From the NCBI GenBank assembly GCA_003218945.1, contig QHPE01000167.1, positions 1 through 42,854 of the forward strand: 42,854 nucleotides of DNA, written 5' to 3'. Origin of the DNA: Verrucomicrobiota bacterium. Its GTDB lineage: Bacteria; Verrucomicrobiota; Verrucomicrobiia; Chthoniobacterales; UBA10450. This document shows positions 18,363 to 28,082 of the stretch, one piece after another. Numbering within the stretch: the stretch's first letter is position 1; each line of letters opens with the position of its first letter. The position numbers were made by a program, and so were the translations under genes. The notes under the pieces are model-generated. The model did no database searches. It was not told where the DNA came from and worked only from the letters and a program-made list of their open reading frames with translations.

Positions 18363-19883
18363 TTACAGCAGCCCGTCACGCGTCATCTTGATTCCTTCCG
18401 GCATATCCGTCGGCCGTGGGGCGTCGATGTGGCTGTGGCTCTTGCCGTAGCCGAAGTAGAAAATGAAGCCGATGAGCAGCCAGACGATGAGTCGCATCCA
18501 GTTCGTCCAGCCTAGTCCGTATATCATGGCGCTGCAGGTGATGATGCCGAGCGTGGCGACCAGCGGCGCGGCGGGAACGCGGAATCCGCGTTCTAGCTCA
18601 GGATGCTTCACGCGCATGATCCACACCCCGGCGCAGACGAGAATGAATGCGAACAATGTGCCGATGCTGGTCATTTCTCCGGTCACATCGGCGGGCACAA
18701 GCGCGGCTAGCGCGCCGGTGAAAACGAAGAACAGCATGTTCGATTTCCATGGCGTGCGATACCGCGGATGCACTTCCGAGAAGATTGACGGAACCAGTCC
18801 GTCGCGGCTCATCGAAAAGAACACGCGCGATTGGCCTAACAACATTACGAGAATGACGGACGAAAAACCGGCGAGGATCGCGACTGTGACCGCGCGCGAA
18901 AGCCATTCGTAACCGTGCATGTATTTGCTGATCGCGAACGCGACCGAGGCTTCACGGCCAGCGGCGCGAAAATCTTCGACCGTGGCGACGCCGCTGAGCA
19001 CGTACGAGAAGAGCACATAGAGAACCGTGCAGAATACCAGAGAACCAAGAATGCCGATCGGCATGTCACGTCTTGGATTGCGCGCTTCCTGTGCTGCGGT
19101 CGAGACGGCATCGAATCCGATGTAAGCGAAGAACACGACACCGGCCGCCCCGAGAATTCCAAGAATACCGCCGTAATGATGCGTGATTCCCTGCGCTGTG
19201 ACGTGCGTCGTCGCCGACGGAATGAATGGCGTGTGATGCGCCGGGTTGATGAATTGCCAGCCGATACCGATGAAGAGCAGTACGATGGACACTTTCAAAA
19301 TTACGATGAGCCCGTTCACAAAAGCGGATTCTTTCGTGCCACGAATGAGCAGCATCGTCAGGAGAAGCAAAATGAAAAGCGCGGGCACGTTCATGATGCC
19401 GTACGTGCCGCCGGGGTCGTGTTCGAATGGCGAATGCGTCCACTGATAGGGGATCGCCATGTTGAACCAGCCGAGCACGCGGTTCGCGTATTCGCTCCAT
19501 GCGTCGGACACGGTCGCCGCGGCGACGGCGTATTCAAGAATCAAATCCCAACCGATGATCCATGCGACGAATTCGCCCATGGTGGCGTACGAGTACGTGT
19601 AAGCGCTGCCCGCGACGGGAATCATCGACGCGAACTCGGCGTAGCACAGACCGGCGAACGCGCAACCGATGCCAGCCACGACAAACGCCAGCACAACCGA
19701 CGGACCCGCGCGATCCGCGATGGCAGCGGCGGTTCGCACAAACAGACCGGCACCGATGATTCCACCGATGCCGAGCGCAACGAGGTTGACCCAGCCTAAC
19801 GAACGCTTGAGAGTATGCTCGCCAACTTGCGCGGCCTCGTACATGAGAAGGTCCAGCGGTTTTTTCTTGAATAGTTTTCCCAT
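18363..19883 (-). CDS. APC family (cationic amino-acid-type) permease
   Basis: A 506-residue transporter resembling YfnA/CAT-type amino-acid permeases. It starts LFKKKPLDLLMYEAAQVGEH, then LGWVNLVALGIGGIIGAGLF (TM1 with the GIGGIIGAG break), CYAEFASMIPVAGSAYTYSY and FFAYIGFDAVSTAAQEARNP, all hallmark stretches of this group. About 12 hydrophobic segments, with the last two followed by a short charged tail. The start lies 4 bp after the stop of the next permease gene, so the two are one transcript. Substrate unknown; a broad-specificity or cationic amino acid is the family default. Confidence 0.9.
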   Translation of the reverse strand: MGKLFKKKPLDLLMYEAAQVGEHTLKRSLGWVNLVALGIGGIIGAGLFVRTAAAIADRAGPSVVLAFVVAGIGCAFAGLCYAEFASMIPVAGSAYTYSYATMGEFVAWIIGWDLILEYAVAAATVSDAWSEYANRVLGWFNMAIPYQWTHSPFEHDPGGTYGIMNVPALFILLLLTMLLIRGTKESAFVNGLIVILKVSIVLLFIGIGWQFINPAHHTPFIPSATTHVTAQGITHHYGGILGILGAAGVVFFAYIGFDAVSTAAQEARNPRRDMPIGILGSLVFCTVLYVLFSYVLSGVATVEDFRAAGREASVAFAISKYMHGYEWLSRAVTVAILAGFSSVILVMLLGQSRVFFSMSRDGLVPSIFSEVHPRYRTPWKSNMLFFVFTGALAALVPADVTGEMTSIGTLFAFILVCAGVWIMRVKHPELERGFRVPAAPLVATLGIITCSAMIYGLGWTNWMRLIVWLLIGFIFYFGYGKSHSHIDAPRPTDMPEGIKMTRDGLL

Positions 19884-19887
19884 GACT

Positions 19888-21435
19888 TCAGATGTTGGTG
19901 CCAGTCCGGCTCGGACTGTCGATGTTATCCAGGCCGATCTTGCGATCGCGTGACTTGTTCCAGAAGAAATAAACCGGCACGCCGGTCAACACGATGATTA
20001 GTCCCGGCCACGTGGTCGCAGTTTGGTAAATGAAGAGCACGACAAGGATGACGGTCGCGCCAAGGATGTACAAAATGGGAACGACTGGATAGCCGAATGC
20101 TTTATATGGCCGTTCCGCATGCGGATCTTTTCGGCGCAGGAGGAAGATGCCAATGATTGTTAATACATAGAAAATCAGCGCGGCTGAAATGACGTAGTCG
20201 AGCAAATTGCCGTAGAGATTGCCATACCCGGTCACGCTGCCAGCTGCATCTGTTTTGACTGTGCGTGGCAAAACGAGTGCGCCGGCCCAAATGCCTTGGA
20301 AAACGAGCGCCCACGCCGGGACGTGGCTTTTGTTGAGCTCGCCGACTCGTCGAAAGAACAGACCGTCTTTCGCCATGGCATAATAGGCGCGGGCACCGGC
20401 AAGAATCAGCCCGTTATTGCAACCGAACGTCGAGACCATGATCGCAACCGCCATGATTGTCGCGCCAGCGCCTGGAAAAATTACGTTGGCTGTTTCAGAG
20501 GCGACACGATCGCTGGGCGCATTCTGGATTGCGTTGAACGGCAGCGTCGCGAGATAAGCGACATTTGCGAGCAAATAAAGTCCGATCACCAGGAACGTGC
20601 CCAATGCGAGGGAAAGCGGCACGTTGCGCCGCGGGTTCACTACCTCTCCGGCAGTGAAAGTGATGTTGTTCCACGCGTCGGCAGAGAACAAGGAATTCGT
20701 CTGTGCCACGCAGATTCCGACGAAGAGTCCGAATACCGTCGCAGCTGTTAAACCTGTGCCAACTTCCTGCAGATTACCGCGCACAGTCCAGAAGTCCCTG
20801 AAGTTTTCCGCACCTGCACCGGATTTCAGCCCGATAACGATTCCGAGGACGATCAACGCGAGCAGCGCGCCAGTTTTTGCGGTCGTGAAAACGTTTTGGA
20901 TAAGCTTGCCGACTTCCAAGCCACGCGTGTTCGTAAATGTCAAAAATCCAATGAGCGCCAGGCCGACGAGCTGTGCCGTCGAAAGCGATAGTGCGTATCC
21001 GCCAAACCGAATCGGCGAAATAATGTAATTGCTTTCGGAAATCCATGGGAGAAGCACGCCGCTGTAGCGTGCGAATCCGACTGCGACGGCCGCAATGGTG
21101 CCGGTCTGAATCACAAGGAAAAGCGTCCAGCCGTAAAGAAATCCCCATAGCGGCGAAAATGCTTCGCGCAGATACACGTATTGCCCACCGGCTTTGGGCA
21201 TCATCGCCGCGAGTTCACCGTACGAGAGCGCGGCTGTCAGTGTCAGTAATCCCGTAACGATCCAGACAATGAGCAACCACCCCGGCGATCCAACCTGGCG
21301 AGCAATGATCGATGAGACTATGAAAATCCCCGAGCCGATCATTGACCCGGCCACAAGCATGGTGGAGTCCAATAAGCCAAGCCCCCTAACAAGTTTTTCT
21401 TCGGCTACAGGTGCTTCGGTGACTGCGCTTGGCAT
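19888..21435 (-). CDS. APC superfamily amino-acid permease (second of tandem pair)
   Basis: A 515-residue membrane transporter, first gene of a two-permease unit. TM1 reads LLDSTMLVAGSMIGSGIFIV; SYGELAAMMPKAGGQYVYLR follows TM2, a near-identical layout to LAT-type exchangers. About 12 hydrophobic stretches; the C-terminus ends NKSRDRKIGL then a polar tail. The upstream leader forms a 7-bp hairpin whose loop and 3' arm carry the AAAGGA ribosome site (see separate entry), so translation of this gene may be held down by RNA structure. Two permeases in tandem with no enzyme next to them suggests uptake or exchange of amino acids as general nutrients. Confidence 0.9.
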   Translation of the reverse strand: MPSAVTEAPVAEEKLVRGLGLLDSTMLVAGSMIGSGIFIVSSIIARQVGSPGWLLIVWIVTGLLTLTAALSYGELAAMMPKAGGQYVYLREAFSPLWGFLYGWTLFLVIQTGTIAAVAVGFARYSGVLLPWISESNYIISPIRFGGYALSLSTAQLVGLALIGFLTFTNTRGLEVGKLIQNVFTTAKTGALLALIVLGIVIGLKSGAGAENFRDFWTVRGNLQEVGTGLTAATVFGLFVGICVAQTNSLFSADAWNNITFTAGEVVNPRRNVPLSLALGTFLVIGLYLLANVAYLATLPFNAIQNAPSDRVASETANVIFPGAGATIMAVAIMVSTFGCNNGLILAGARAYYAMAKDGLFFRRVGELNKSHVPAWALVFQGIWAGALVLPRTVKTDAAGSVTGYGNLYGNLLDYVISAALIFYVLTIIGIFLLRRKDPHAERPYKAFGYPVVPILYILGATVILVVLFIYQTATTWPGLIIVLTGVPVYFFWNKSRDRKIGLDNIDSPSRTGTNI

Positions 21436-21552: not shown

Positions 21553-22527
21553 GTGATGACCGCGAATCATCTGCTCCGGGCGCGACGGTTTCTGTGGGGG
21601 AGCTGCGCTGCTCTGGTGTTGGTCATCCAGTTGGGTGGCGCGTCGCAGGCCGCTTTGACGCGGGCAAACACTCAGTTCGAGGCGCTGCCGCTGGTACGCT
21701 CCCGACAAAATCACCTGCTGGTCCATGCCTTCATCAACGGCAGACCCGCATGGCTGACGGTCGATAGCGGGGCGCCCGTGAGCGCGATTGCCCTGAATCG
21801 TCGTGAATATTTTCGGCTCAAGCCGATCACGGCGAAATCAAGTTTGCCTGCGCGCGTTCAAATCAACGGCGCATTCAATAATGTCGCGATCGCCCGTGAA
21901 CTGCGGATTGGCGGGTTAATTCTCGCTGATGAACCGGTGGTTACGGTCGATCTCGGCGGTTCCGCGCGCGCAGCCCGAATGGCGCACGAGCCGCAGATCG
22001 ACGGAATCATTGGAGCAGATATCCTTTTCCCGACGCAAGCCGTGCTCGATTGTGAAAGGCAATTACTGGTTCTCAAGATCGACCCGAATGTTGTGGGCAG
22101 TTTCCCGGGCTTCAGTCGCCGCGGGTTACGCGCTGTTCCGATTCAAGTCAGCGACGGTTACAACTTGTATGTGAACGGTTCCGTGAACGGCAGAGCGGCA
22201 AAACTCATGGTCGATACCGGTTCTTTCACCACTTTGTTACATCGGTCCTTTGTCCGGAGCATGCGAATTGCCACTCGTGAGACGCCATATAGTTCCTCGG
22301 CTGTCAACCTGAAAGAGCGCGGGGTGCGTGTGGCGCATATTCGCAAGCTGTCCGTCGGCTCCGTGGACATCGTCGGCAAAGAAGTGGGTGTCATTGATCT
22401 GGAAGGACTCATCCATGACGGGCTGTTGGAAGGTTCACCACCCGTTGCCGGCCTGCTCGGCGCGGAAACATTGCGACGTCACCACGGCATCATCGACTTC
22501 GGCACCCGCACGCTGTATCTACGGTAG
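21553..22527 (+). CDS. Two-lobed retropepsin-like aspartic protease, exported
   Basis: A 324-residue protein with an N-terminal signal segment (RFLWGSCAALVLVIQLGGA). It then has two copies of the clan AA half-site: Asp71 in LTVDSGAPVSAIAL and Asp221 in LMVDTGSFTTLLH. Each is followed by a hydrophobic-hydrophobic-Gly element (GIIGADILFP and GLLGAETLRR). Most bacterial retropepsin-like proteins have one such half and must dimerise; here both halves sit on one chain, as in eukaryotic pepsins. It probably acts in the periplasm. Start is GTG 21553 or the next codon ATG 21556. The substrate is unknown. The retroviral-type call is from motif order, not from a search. Confidence 0.75.
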   Translation: MMTANHLLRARRFLWGSCAALVLVIQLGGASQAALTRANTQFEALPLVRSRQNHLLVHAFINGRPAWLTVDSGAPVSAIALNRREYFRLKPITAKSSLPARVQINGAFNNVAIARELRIGGLILADEPVVTVDLGGSARAARMAHEPQIDGIIGADILFPTQAVLDCERQLLVLKIDPNVVGSFPGFSRRGLRAVPIQVSDGYNLYVNGSVNGRAAKLMVDTGSFTTLLHRSFVRSMRIATRETPYSSSAVNLKERGVRVAHIRKLSVGSVDIVGKEVGVIDLEGLIHDGLLEGSPPVAGLLGAETLRRHHGIIDFGTRTLYLR

Positions 22528-23545: not shown

Positions 23546-24535
23546 ATGAGAACCGACCTCCTTGTCCGACGAACGCGGAAGCATTTCCCACGATTGGATG
23601 TCGCCGAGATAAAGATCAGCCCGATCCAAAAAGGAGGATCAGACCGAAAATTCTATCGCGTCCAATGCTCGGCGGAGCAGGCGCTCATTTTGGTGAAGTA
23701 CAATTTGGAACGGGAAGAAAACCGGCATTACGTGACCATCGCCAATTTTCTCAGCGAGCACAGAATCCGCGTTCCACAGATTTATTTTCACGACGCAGCC
23801 GAAGGTTTAATCTGGCTGGAAGACCTTGGCGAGCGCGATCTTTACAATTATCGGGGAGAAACCTGGCTGGTACGCCGCGCCTTTTACGAATCGGCTCTTG
23901 AGCAAATCGCGATCCTGCATGCTTTGCCAGAATCGGTTTGCGTCGAGATGAAGCAGCTTTTGCCCGCCGAATTCAATTCAGAGCTTTATCTTTGGGAGCA
24001 AAACTATTTCTTCGAAAATTGCCTGGGCCGTTATTTCAAAATCGACAAGGGAAAGCTCGCACCGCTCGCCGCGTTGCCTGCGCTACAGAAGATTGCCGAG
24101 CACCTTGCGTCGTTCCCGAGAGTTTTGGTGCACCGCGATTTTCAGTCGCAAAACATCATCATCCGAAACAGCTACGCGTACCTGATTGATTTTCAGGGGA
24201 TGCGGCCCGGTCTGGCCGAATACGACCTTGCGTCGTTACTCTACGATCCGTATGTCGATCTTCCGGAAGTGGAACGCTCAGAGCTGGCCGGATACTATCG
24301 GCAGCTGCAGATCGAAAGAGGAATCGCGATCAACGGCGATTTCGATCTCAAGTTGCGGCTCTGTGCCATGCAACGCCTGATGCAAGCGCTGGGCGCGTAC
24401 GGTTTTCTCGGGTTGGTTAAAGGCCATAAACACTTTCTTAAGCACGTCCCTGCCGCGTTGAAATCATTGCAGCGGATTGTAACGGAAACCGACGGCTTGA
24501 CCCAGTTAGCGAAAACGTTGCGGGAATTGGCGTAA
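23546..24535 (+). CDS. amgK: AmgK-like anomeric MurNAc/GlcNAc kinase (APH fold)
   Basis: A 329-residue aminoglycoside-phosphotransferase-fold kinase. It has an N-lobe KGGSDRKFYRV loop, the catalytic loop VLVHRDFQSQNIII with Asp198 and a downstream Asn, and the metal-binding LIDFQGMRPGLAEYDLASLL. These features match AmgK, which phosphorylates the anomeric carbon of MurNAc or GlcNAc, giving MurU its substrate and bypassing de novo UDP-MurNAc synthesis (the fosfomycin-insensitive recycling route). Spacing of 3 bp from the murU-like gene supports the pair, though the order is reversed relative to Pseudomonas amgK-murU. APH-fold kinases are diverse, so substrate is inferred from context. MupP, the usual upstream phosphatase, is not in the window. 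Confidence 0.75.
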   Translation: MRTDLLVRRTRKHFPRLDVAEIKISPIQKGGSDRKFYRVQCSAEQALILVKYNLEREENRHYVTIANFLSEHRIRVPQIYFHDAAEGLIWLEDLGERDLYNYRGETWLVRRAFYESALEQIAILHALPESVCVEMKQLLPAEFNSELYLWEQNYFFENCLGRYFKIDKGKLAPLAALPALQKIAEHLASFPRVLVHRDFQSQNIIIRNSYAYLIDFQGMRPGLAEYDLASLLYDPYVDLPEVERSELAGYYRQLQIERGIAINGDFDLKLRLCAMQRLMQALGAYGFLGLVKGHKHFLKHVPAALKSLQRIVTETDGLTQLAKTLRELA

Positions 24536-24700
24536 GAGACGAGAAACAGCGCGTCGCTGCAGCCGGCCGCTAGCCGAGGCAGACCCAGGTCCGCGGCGAG
24601 TTGCAAATTCGAAGTGGGTACGGGATGCAAGCGCCGGCTGGGGTCGCTCGTTTTGCATTGCCAATTTGTTCATGGTAACTTTTCCTACGTAAATTGGTTT

Positions 24701-26661
24701 ATGCCTCAACTCGATCGTAACTCTCAAAAAGAGAACAGACAGCGCGGGAGCGAACCGAATTTTAACTGGCGCGGCGTCGTTCTCATCGTGATCGCCTTCA
24801 GTCTAATCGCGATGGCCATGCTTTTCTACCGGGGAGGGATGCAACCGGTCGAAGACGTGCCGTATAACCGTTTTCTCGAGCTGTTGGAAAACAAACAGAT
24901 CGTTAACGACAAGAACTACCCGCTTCAGCTGGTCGTCGAGGATGGTCGGCCAACCCAAACCTTGCGCGGTGCGTACGTCCGCCAGGGCGCAGGCGCAGCG
25001 CCGTCACAGCCCGTCCCGTTTCACACCACGGTCTATCTGAATTTCACAAATGATCTTCAGAAGAAACTCGCCGACGCTGGGATGCAGCCCGCGATCAAAA
25101 CAGAATCCAACATGCTGGCGCAGACAGTGGTCGGTTTCCTGCCGATCGCGCTTTTCCTCCTGGTCCTGTATTTCCTGTTTCGCCAGCAAATCCGGATGGC
25201 TGGCAAAGGCGCGCTCAACTTCGGTAAATCCAAGGCGCGCATGCTCGCCCGTGACAAGAACAAGATCACTTTTCGCGACGTCGCCGGCGTAGAGGAAGCC
25301 AAGGACGAAGTACAGGAACTGGTTGAGTTTCTGCGTGATCCGAAAAAGTTTCAGAAACTCGGTGGCCGTATTCCCAAGGGCGTTCTGATGGTCGGGCCGC
25401 CTGGCACCGGCAAGACCCTGTTGGCGCGCGCGATCGCTGGCGAAGCGGATGTGCCGTTCTTCTCCATCAGCGGTTCGGATTTCGTGGAGATGTTCGTCGG
25501 CGTGGGCGCCTCGCGCGTCCGCGACATGTTCGAGCAGGGCAAGAAATCCGCCCCTTGCATCATTTTCATCGACGAAATTGACGCGGTCGGCCGTCACCGC
25601 GGCCACGGCGTGGGCGGCGGACACGACGAACGCGAGCAGACATTGAACGCCTTGCTAGTAGAGATGGACGGATTCGACACACAAGAGGGCGTGATCATCA
25701 TCGCGGCGACGAACCGGCCGGACGTTCTTGACCCGGCATTGCTGCGACCGGGACGCTTCGATCGCCAGATCACCGTGAATCTACCGGATGTGAAAGGCCG
25801 CGAAGAAATCCTGCGTGTCCACGCAAAGAAAGTGAAGCTCGCTGAGGGCGTCGACCTTGCCGTGATCGCACGCGGAACACCCGGTTATTCCGGCGCGGAA
25901 CTGGCGAATGTCATCAACGAGGCGGCGTTACTCGCTGCGCGCCGCGGATTGAAAGGAATCACACTGGCCGAGTTGGAGGAAGCACGCGACAAAGTTCGCT
26001 GGGGCAAAGAACGCCGGAGCCTCGCGCTGAGCGAGAAAGAAAAACAAAATACCGCGTATCACGAAGCTGGCCACGCGCTTTTGCTGGTGCTTCTCCCGCA
26101 CACTGAGCCCTTGCACAAGGTCACCATCATCCCGCGGGGGCGCGCCCTCGGCGTGACGATGCAATTGCCGGAGGCCGACCGGCACACCTACACGCGCGAG
26201 TTCCTCGACGCGCAGATCGCGATCCTGATGGGCGGCCGTGTGGCAGAGGAGCTCTTCCTGCGCCAGATGACGAGCGGCGCGGCATGGTCGAATACGGCGA
26301 ACACGAAGATTACGTTTTCCTCGGACGCGACATCTCTCGAGCGCGCGACTACAGTGAAGCGACCGCTGAACAAATCGACCAGGAAGTGCGCAGGCTGATC
26401 GACGACGCCTATCAACTGGCCAAGCACACGCTCGTTACCAATCGCGACACACTCGAAACCATCGCAAAAGCCTTGCTCGAGTACGAGACCCTGGACGGTT
26501 CACAGATCAAAGAGATCATCGATCACGGCCGCCTGATCAATCCGCCGCCCGGCATTAGCTCGACGCCCACCAAGAAACTGCCCGATAAACCGCCCAAGCA
26601 AGTCGTTGCACCCGACGTTGCCCCGCCGCTCCCCGGCGCTCTCGGCGGCGCGCCGGCGTAA
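24701..26661 (+). pseudogene. ftsH: FtsH AAA+ zinc metalloprotease, frameshifted by an internal deletion
   Basis: FtsH degrades misfolded and short-lived membrane and cytosolic proteins. From ATG 24701 ([13 protein letters not shown]) come TM1, a periplasmic domain, TM2, then the AAA module with GPPGTGKT (near residue 232), [12 protein letters not shown] and [20 protein letters not shown], and the protease HEAGH (His near 454). After [10 protein letters not shown] (26267-26281) the frame is lost. It is open to 26398 with a nonsense tail, while the true C-terminus continues in another frame from ATG 26284 ([20 protein letters not shown]). About 25 residues expected between (the NDI-to-MSE-LG helix) are missing; that segment normally holds the Asp third zinc ligand (D495 in E. 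coli). Either the gene is dead with another ftsH elsewhere, or this is an assembly error. Confidence 0.85.
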
Positions 26662-26694: not shown

Positions 26695-26713
26695 GGCAAG
26701 CGCTCCGCTTGCC
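26695..26713. repeat. Hairpin repeat, GGCAAGCG-CTC-CGCTTGCC
   Basis: Perfect 8-bp stem with 3-nt loop, preceded by TTGTAG. A sister element (TGTAGTGGCAGGCGTGTCGCCTGC on the minus strand) lies at 33107-33123. It sits between ftsH and intI and may work as a terminator of ftsH. Confidence 0.55.
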
Positions 26714-27247
26714 AAGGCACAACAATTTTGACACCATCTGCGGTGTGTCGCCCTCCATCGCCGTGGCTTCCTCGCCCAAGCTGCTCGATCGCGTTCGCTG
26801 GCATTTGAGGGTGAGACATTACTCTATCCGCACCGAGCAAGCGTACGTCGATTGGATTCGCCGGTATATTCTCTATCATCGTAAACGCCATCCAAACCAA
26901 ATGGGCGAGAAAGAAATCACCGAATTTCTCACTCATCTCGCGGTTGAAAAACATGTCGCAGCCTCCACTCAGAATCAGGCCTTCAGCGCGCTTTTGTTTC
27001 TGTACCAGCAAATACTCGAGCGAAAACTCGACTTCATCGATAATGTCCAGCGCGTCACGCGCCCGGCCAAACTGCCCGTCGTGTTCACGCCGGCGAAGGC
27101 GCGAGCTGTCTTAGCGCATTTGAAAGGTGATTACCGACTAATGGCAGAACTTCTTTACGGAGCAGGCCTGCGGCTCATGGAATGCGTTCGGTTGCGCGTC
27201 AAAGATGTCGATTTTGGTTATGGGCATGTCACGGTGAGGGATGGTTC

Positions 27248-27261
27248 ACCCCGTGAGATAA
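27248..27261 (+). repeat. Left inverted repeat of the GIY-YIG insertion
   Basis: ACCCCGTGAGATAA, exact reverse complement of 27509-27522. It lies 4 nt before the GIY-YIG start codon, so it is also the leader of that gene. Confidence 0.8.
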
Positions 27262-27265
27262 GAAC

Positions 27266-27524
27266 ATGAGTTCCTACTTCTACGTTTTTACGCTCATTAA
27301 ATGACCAAAGGTTCTATGTCGGATTCACGAAAAACCTACGCAAGAGAGTCCAGGATCACACAAAGGGCTTGGTTCCTTCAACTAAACAACGCAATCCATT
27401 CGAGCTTGTCTATTGGGAGGGCTGCCTCGACCAAACTGATGCCACGCGACGCGAAAAGTATTTGAAGTCGAGCTGGGGAAAACGATACATCAAAAGCCGC
27501 CTACGAAGTTATCTCACGGGGTAA
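27266..27524 (+). pseudogene. Small GIY-YIG endonuclease, one frameshift
   Basis: A single-domain GIY-YIG nuclease of the UPF0213/YhbQ type, about 85 residues. From ATG 27266 the frame gives MSSYFYVFTL, then shifts; the next frame (from 27297) gives LNDQRFYVGFTKNLRKRVQD, an intact second half-motif (YVG), the catalytic Arg region, and KYLKSSWGKRYIKSRLRSYL with LTG at the end. Homologues have one residue between L and LND, so loss of 2 nt explains the shift. The C-terminal SYLTG and the TAA stop are encoded by the right inverted repeat and first bases of intI. Whether it is active elsewhere cannot be told; here it would need frame correction. Confidence 0.75.
27509..27522 (+). repeat. Right inverted repeat of the GIY-YIG insertion
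   Basis: TTATCTCACGGGGT, exact reverse complement of 27248-27261. It encodes the last residues of the GIY-YIG protein, so sequence conservation at this end could be partly a coding constraint. Confidence 0.8.
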
Positions 27525-28082
27525 AAGGCTTGCGCGATCGAGTAACGATGTTGCCAGAGAAATTGCGCCGGTCCCTTCAACTTCATTTGGAGCGCGTGCG
27601 ACAAATTCATCAGCATGATTTGGCGCGAAATGGCGGCAGGTTTTATTTGCCATTCGCGCTGGAGCAAAAATACCGAAACGCGAATCGTTCCTGGCCATGG
27701 CAATATGTTTTCCCCGCTGCAAAAGTGTCAACCGATCCTCGATCCGGCGAGCGGCGGCGACATCATGTGGCGGAGAACAATCTGCAAAAAGCGGTGAAAG
27801 CGGCAATCGAACGGGCTGGCATCAGAAAAGCGGCGAGTTGTCACACGTTCCAGCACAGCTTCGCGACCCATTTCTTGGACAACGAGCAGGACATTCGTAC
27901 GGTTTCAGGAGTTACTCGGCCACAAGGACGTATCCACCACGATGATTTACACCCATGTTTTAAACAAACCTGGCCTGGCCGTGCGCAGCCCATTAGACCT
28001 CGAACCGCTGGCGAGGAGCCGGCGCCCGAATTAGACGGAAAATTTTCCTCCTAATTCTCGTTAGATGTAGAAACAGCTTTCT

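Follow-up and report, generated by a model that had tools for sequence, protein, structure and literature searches.

A retropepsin-like gene that was duplicated and fused is the proposed ancestor of pepsin, whose two lobes have lost nearly all their sequence similarity. A stretch of 42,854 nucleotides of Verrucomicrobiota DNA (contig QHPE01000167.1), referred to here as the window, contains an open reading frame whose product carries two D-[ST]-G sites in a single chain, and the question raised by this locus is whether a bacterium has come by a two-lobed aspartic protease in a comparable manner and, if so, how long ago, how often, and to what use. A sequence-only reading of the frame had already proposed that an internal duplication gave rise to a bilobal periplasmic protease. 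Based on the results reported here, the protein is probably a single-chain, two-lobed clan AA aspartic endopeptidase made of two retropepsin-like units fused head to tail, which would be exported and catalytically active.

Open reading frame and N-terminus

The frame is complete (21553..22527, plus strand) and encodes 324 amino acids when read from a GTG at position 21553. This codon, in fact, directly abuts an ATG at 21556, and because of this arrangement, and because the alignments of several close relatives begin only at residue 2, the ATG is the likelier start. Approximately residues 2-34 (21556..21654, plus strand) resemble a signal peptide, in that basic residues, Arg included, precede a hydrophobic core at residues 13-27, where hydrophobicity peaks (Kyte-Doolittle 2.09), and ASQA/A follows it; export of the protease is predicted on the basis of these features. 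In comparisons with six relatives, whole-gene dN/dS ranged between 0.064 and 0.076, with values of 0.44-0.78 for residues 1-40 versus 0.016-0.060 in the lobes (one saturated N-lobe value was left out). Such figures point to purifying selection on both lobes and to a fast-evolving N-terminal segment. In the AlphaFold2 model discussed below, pLDDT values under 50 are found in much of residues 1-38, and are confined to them.

Two homologous lobes

Past the N-terminus, two retropepsin-like lobes follow one another on the plus strand. The N-lobe (residues 42-185; 21676..22107) was delimited by a Pfam Asp_protease_2 match at 21727-22020, by model strands at residues 42-175, and by its homology to the C-lobe (residues 192-324; 22126..22524), which holds the best Pfam stretch (residues 207-304) and whose own model fits APRc and Ddi1. 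Just as the sequence-only reading had it, each lobe carries its own D-[ST]-G site and its own hydrophobic-hydrophobic-Gly element. In lobe 1, these are the predicted catalytic DSG (Asp71, within VDSGA; 21763..21771, plus strand) and the GIIG psi-loop element (residues 151-154, within DGIIGAD; 22003..22014, plus strand), and in lobe 2 the predicted catalytic DTG (Asp221, within VDTGS; 22213..22221, plus strand) and the GLLG psi-loop element (residues 300-303, within AGLLGAE; 22450..22461, plus strand). Asp_protease_2 (PF13650) was matched in two stretches with 67.3 bits against a cut-off of 24.3, and the same family was matched at E 0.001 by all 48 aligned proteins, the window's included. The scores obtained with NCBIfam TIGR02281 (clan_AA_DTGA; 31.3 bits) and with PE-PGRS_C (13.7 bits) were under the respective cut-offs of 57.95 and 33.

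When the two lobes of the window protein were aligned to each other, 36 of 134 residues were identical (27%), with a local score of 114 (z 16.8) against a mean of 28 and a maximum of 49 in 200 shuffles. Comparison of the N-lobe and C-lobe profiles with hhalign gave a probability of 99.8% (E 6.7e-30; score 169.7 over 132 columns), while the best score among 30 column-shuffled profiles was 22.5. Because the lobes are homologous along their whole length, a true internal duplication is the explanation for the two sites, and this part of the earlier proposal is borne out.

Conservation and distribution

The nearest records are Verrucomicrobiota metagenome-assembled genomes (MAGs), several of which are titled Candidatus Udaeobacter or Chthoniobacterales. 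A protease match at E 1e-60 or better was present in 30 of 34 genomes of the same genus, the four without a match being 62-81% complete, as well as in both of two further genomes of the same family and then in both of two more. Other families of the order yielded weaker matches, with no more than 31% identity, in 7 of 21 genomes, and a tblastn search for plasmid-borne relatives found none.

For the 48-row alignment, proteins were picked by hand, with the window's own among them. Near-duplicates and partial or weak matches were dropped, as were L043, whose match length is not divisible by three, L044, which has unread bases, and L042 and L045, both truncated at an end. Down to 18% identity, the residues D71, G151, G154, D221, G223, T227, G300, G303, and D315 are invariant in these proteins. 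The possibility that this is a pseudo-protease or a binding protein that retains the fold has a precedent in PE_PGRS16, for which a similar fold and similar sites but no activity are described in PMC6819658. That both aspartates and the four psi-loop glycines are invariant in 48 hand-picked proteins is, however, what would be expected of an enzyme, and we consider such a loss of function improbable. Another residue worth mentioning is Cys167 (22051..22053, plus strand), the sole cysteine of the mature chain, which is conserved in 44 of the 48 proteins; among the 29 closest alignment rows, 25 have no other cysteine in the mature chain. A lone conserved cysteine is odd in an exported protein, and this one may be buried or may link chains.

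Homologues lacking one of the two sites, which the sequence-only reading counted as evidence against itself, were absent among close frames (E <1e-90, >250 aa), as all 46 distinct ones, counting the window's own, carry both. When all 83 distinct matching frames were considered, a count that takes in rows dropped from the 48-row alignment, D[ST]G was found at both places in 71. Of the remaining 12, four run off the end of a contig (L002, L003, L042, L045), a further two belong to a single gene split by unread bases (L044), and in six distant proteins one site is altered, absent, or unaligned (L101, L105, L108, L110, L113, L114). Site loss is therefore limited to a few remote homologues, with the close frames all intact.

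Across the phylum, Asp_protease_2 was found in 76 of 194 sampled Verrucomicrobiota genomes. Among 20 loci chosen from these by hand for spread, rather than randomly, nine carry a strict D[ST]G twice in one frame and four are two-lobed by profile with one strict motif, for a total of 13 two-lobed loci; in six a single lobe was detected, and one gave no frame. Given these loci, the solved structure 9iy9, and the active protease PecA, the two-lobed build is not new, and the rarity that the earlier reading ascribed to two-site bacterial proteases was overstated. In another family of the order, one 8.5 kb stretch (L099:1-8451, minus strand) contains three frames of 322-374 aa that resemble proteases and carry two D[ST]G sites apiece, and two of these frames adjoin each other.

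Predicted structure

The AlphaFold2 model, built from the 48-row alignment, had a mean pLDDT of 82.5 and a pTM of 0.79, with several blocks beyond the N-terminus at pLDDT 72-79 and with long hairpin strands in both lobes. A Foldseek search of the PDB ranked 9iy9 first (E 8.0e-15), followed by plasmepsins and pepsins, and placed the single-chain HIV-1 protease 4eqj at rank 32 (TM 0.69 by target length). These superpositions are loose, as TM by query, a value that includes the disordered N-terminus, was 0.60 with 9iy9 and 0.45-0.55 in the remaining rows listed, with rmsd of 5.9-10.3 A. With VIA-align, 9iy9 reached a Z of 20.7 over 256 residues (3.5 A; model residues 40-324), and the pepsin-type chains, renin and pepsin, reached Z of 16.2-17.0 over 236-251 residues (3.5-4.4 A), with both lobes covered. 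This match of the whole predicted chain to 9iy9 and to pepsin and renin backs the bilobal arrangement put forward in the sequence-only reading.

Matches to the PDB at the sequence level require the family profile, since the search with the single sequence found no PDB chain below E 0.018. With the profile, Ddi1 (3e-11), 9iy9 (5e-8), and APRc (1e-7) were recovered, and the best matches belonging to pepsin family A1 were polyporopepsin (E 0.0015) and plasmepsin II (0.095). In a single hmmsearch alignment, the DSG of lobe 1 and the DTG of lobe 2 are each placed opposite a DTG of 9iy9. The C-lobe folded alone gave a pLDDT of 87.8, and its model is closest to the single-lobe retropepsins APRc (Z 12.8) and Ddi1 (Z 12.6), with the two-lobed 4ehc only slightly lower (11.8). 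As modelled, then, the overall layout is pepsin-like, and the C-lobe itself is retropepsin-like.

In the mechanism that we favour, once the chain is exported and its N-terminal signal removed, the two lobes would pair with each other, like two retropepsin subunits, so that Asp71 and Asp221 would meet at one active site. A water molecule activated by this pair of aspartates would then cut a peptide held in the cleft beneath the beta-hairpin flaps of the lobes.

A different arrangement would see the chain dimerise, with active sites formed between chains (N-lobe to N-lobe, C-lobe to C-lobe), or the lobes act separately. The single-lobe RloA proteases are described as dimeric (PMC12239564), and Cys167 could join chains, but the single-chain model, with the pTM given above, matches two-lobed enzymes end to end, and we regard this arrangement as very improbable. 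A genuine MEROPS A1 pepsin, perhaps of eukaryotic origin, is more improbable still, although both lobes of the whole model superpose on renin, pepsin, and plasmepsins: no pepsin family was matched in Pfam up to E 1, the profile finds Ddi1, 9iy9, and APRc well ahead of polyporopepsin, over a quarter of aligned lobe residues are shared whereas pepsin lobes share motifs only according to PMC2761423, and relatives are widespread in Verrucomicrobiota, with gene order conserved around the orthologues. The acquisition of a pepsin from a eukaryote by horizontal transfer was rejected on the basis of the profile scores and the lobe similarity.

Age and number of the duplications

In a tree of the lobes of 28 two-lobed proteins, N-lobes and C-lobes are nearly fully separate: two label changes are needed, compared with 19 on average after shuffling. 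Support for the deepest fork is weak (44/35), and the N-lobes of two proteins (L097, L098) are placed with the C-lobes. The 27% lobe identity and this mostly lobe-wise grouping agree with the earlier claim that the halves are more diverged than a recent tandem duplication would leave them, and on the same grounds a recent tandem duplication was rejected.

The same bacterial family also harbours a second family of two-lobed aspartic proteases, whose history appears to be different. This protease family is represented by L117 (947-1825), which shows no obvious signal peptide, and L118, with 293 and 290 aa, respectively. Their lobes are identical to each other at 51 of 117 and 49 of 116 residues (44% and 42%), the lobe-lobe scores exceed those with lobes from every other family in the comparison, and the four lobes form one clade (100/99). 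Forcing all N-lobes together in the smaller set was 14.7 log units worse (p-AU 0.047), a test in which the L117/L118 grouping had been named after seeing the wider tree. In that wider tree there are six (N) and five (C) label changes and the deep forks are unresolved; the lobes of L131 also pair (98/84), and those of L116, L123, L125, L126, and L128 do not. Long-branch warnings accompany both trees and, in the smaller one, concern the place where L117/L118 join. An own, younger duplication at the origin of the L117/L118 family is thus suggestive only.

If that is so, retropepsins would have given rise to two-lobed pepsin-like proteases at least twice within Verrucomicrobiota, the putatively exported family with its old duplication and the L117/L118 family being independent fusions of different age. 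We hold this to be a real, if tentative, prospect, and because of the post hoc grouping, the poorly resolved wider tree, and the long-branch warnings, repeated fusion is suggested only. Gene conversion from lobe to lobe is a possible alternative to repeated fusion.

Neighbouring genes and possible role

Upstream of the protease lie two divergent genes for APC amino-acid permeases (18363-19883 and 19888-21435, minus strand; Pfam AA_permease_2), and downstream, on the plus strand, an NTP_transferase gene (22592, a guessed start, to 23542) and an APH-type kinase gene (23546-24535). All of these are conserved neighbours. The transferase is MurU-like and the kinase AmgK-like, in both cases below the NCBIfam cut-off; a mannose-1-phosphate guanylyltransferase model gives the transferase a higher score, likewise under its cut-off. 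These two genes might belong to a cell-wall sugar recycling route in Chthoniobacterales. Synteny was counted over 44 loci (L004-L047), using those with enough flanking sequence: of 37 loci flanked by 900 bases or more, 33 have the nearer permease gene in divergent orientation no farther than 1 kb away, and of 40 loci flanked by 2 kb or more, 36 have the transferase gene downstream at a distance of up to 2.5 kb. Gene order alone is no proof of function.

One possibility, which we put forward with reserve, is that an envelope or extracellular protease supplies peptides or amino acids to the neighbouring permeases, in a lineage for which dependence on amino-acid uptake has been described. Nutrient scavenging of this sort is plausible because a Udaeobacter paper (PMC7343977) cites an earlier genome as rich in protease and amino-acid transporter genes and as having many auxotrophies, even though the same source warns against equating the absence of pathway enzymes with auxotrophy. 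The permease order, moreover, is also conserved outside Udaeobacter, and is therefore no special trait of auxotrophs.

Alternatively, the protease might take part in cell-envelope protein processing or in peptidoglycan homeostasis rather than in feeding. The MurU/AmgK-like pair nearby, with the transferase following in most loci, and the effects on cell shape and on tolerance to cell-wall drugs described for RloA, a secreted retropepsin-like protease (PMC12239564), render an envelope role about as plausible as scavenging, and PecA is likewise described as processing surface proteins (PMC6819658). What weakens this option is that the MurU and AmgK matches are under the NCBIfam cut-offs, with the guanylyltransferase model scoring higher, and that 0.5-1.7 kb separate the protease from the transferase in the six loci examined. 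An envelope role is held with the same reserve.

Of possible relevance to pH is the residue that follows the lobe-2 D-[ST]-G, which is Ser in same-genus loci (L048-L075), Ala in the four loci that come from the family but not from the genus (L076, L100, L102, L103), and Ser or Ala in distant paralogues. As Ala at the matching place of pepsin-type enzymes is linked to neutral activity in PMC2761423, this difference may offer, by analogy, a lead on pH, and is no evidence for an acid optimum.

Farther downstream, two genes appear interrupted. An ftsH frame (24614-26398) ends inside the M41 peptidase domain (profile positions 3-88 of 191), and FtsH-like C-terminal coding seems, by eye, to resume downstream in another frame, which would reflect either a broken gene or an assembly fault; at the matching place in two relatives (L004, L006), the FtsH stretches are 93-94% identical. 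Directly after it, a tyrosine recombinase of the phage-integrase type is found in two frames (26709-28054), with a SAM-like N-terminal part at 26709-27269 and a catalytic piece at 27530-28054, and is possibly a decayed gene.

Discussion

The family described here is a conserved bacterial one whose lobes have kept a recognisable likeness, and the same phylum also holds further two-lobed families as well as single-lobe relatives. If the independent fusions suggested above are true, they would be natural replays of the origin proposed for pepsin, and, once confirmed, would open the step from a dimer to a bilobal monomer to study at several ages and by engineering in soil bacteria that are harmless. 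To Udaeobacter, described as a soil lineage of global abundance (PMC7343977), the sequence also contributes a candidate exported protease.

Among the literature matches listed for two-lobed bacterial retropepsins, which cover bacterial pepsins, single-lobe retropepsins, and PecA, none concerned this Verrucomicrobiota family. Single-lobe prokaryotic enzymes, pepsins, and a structure of APRc that lacks the usual dimer have been described (PMC2642776, PMC11313796, PMC4140852), and PerP is listed in a review on site-2 proteases (PMC10202637).

RloA, RimB, and APRc, single-lobe bacterial retropepsins, resemble the window protein in lobe fold, as the fit of its C-lobe to APRc indicates, and differ from it in having one lobe per chain instead of two. 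RloA is also described as secreted and as carrying a DTGA motif (PMC12239564); it is, however, a homodimer with a conserved disulfide, whereas the mature chain of the window protein has one cysteine. The same contrast in number applies to the homodimeric A2-like retropepsins, with one lobe and one Asp per chain against two and two here. Engineered single-chain dimers of HIV-1 protease (4eqj) do place two retropepsin units in one chain, but they are man-made from copies of one unit, while the window fusion is natural and its halves have diverged.

In pepsin family A1, the N-lobe has a flap with Tyr75. As in the window protein, A1 enzymes have two lobes per chain, each with one D-[ST]-G and one hydrophobic-hydrophobic-Gly, but A1 lobes share almost no sequence beyond the active-site and psi-loop motifs, and bacterial A1 homologues, such as those of Shewanella, are predicted to be without signal peptides, according to PMC2761423.

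Closer in build are PecA and PE_PGRS16 of mycobacteria, secreted chains with one DTG and one DSG, as described in PMC6819658, the former a surface protease of demonstrated activity and the latter solved as 4EHC. The C-lobe of the window protein fits this structure, as reported above. These are nonetheless PE-family proteins of type VII secretion, and the window protein scores under the PE-PGRS_C cut-off.

The closest known system is 9iy9 from Bacteroides fragilis, titled a putative endopeptidase, for which a literature search combining several terms found no paper. Its second site is DTGN, roughly 150 extra residues precede its lobes, and identity over the fold alignment is 14%. Like the protein studied here, in which export is predicted, it is an exported bacterial single chain with two lobes and two D-[ST]-G sites (both DTG in 9iy9), and it is the best fold match to the window protein, which, with both catalytic sites aligned to those of 9iy9, fits an informal 9iy9-like group of two-lobed bacterial clan AA proteins.
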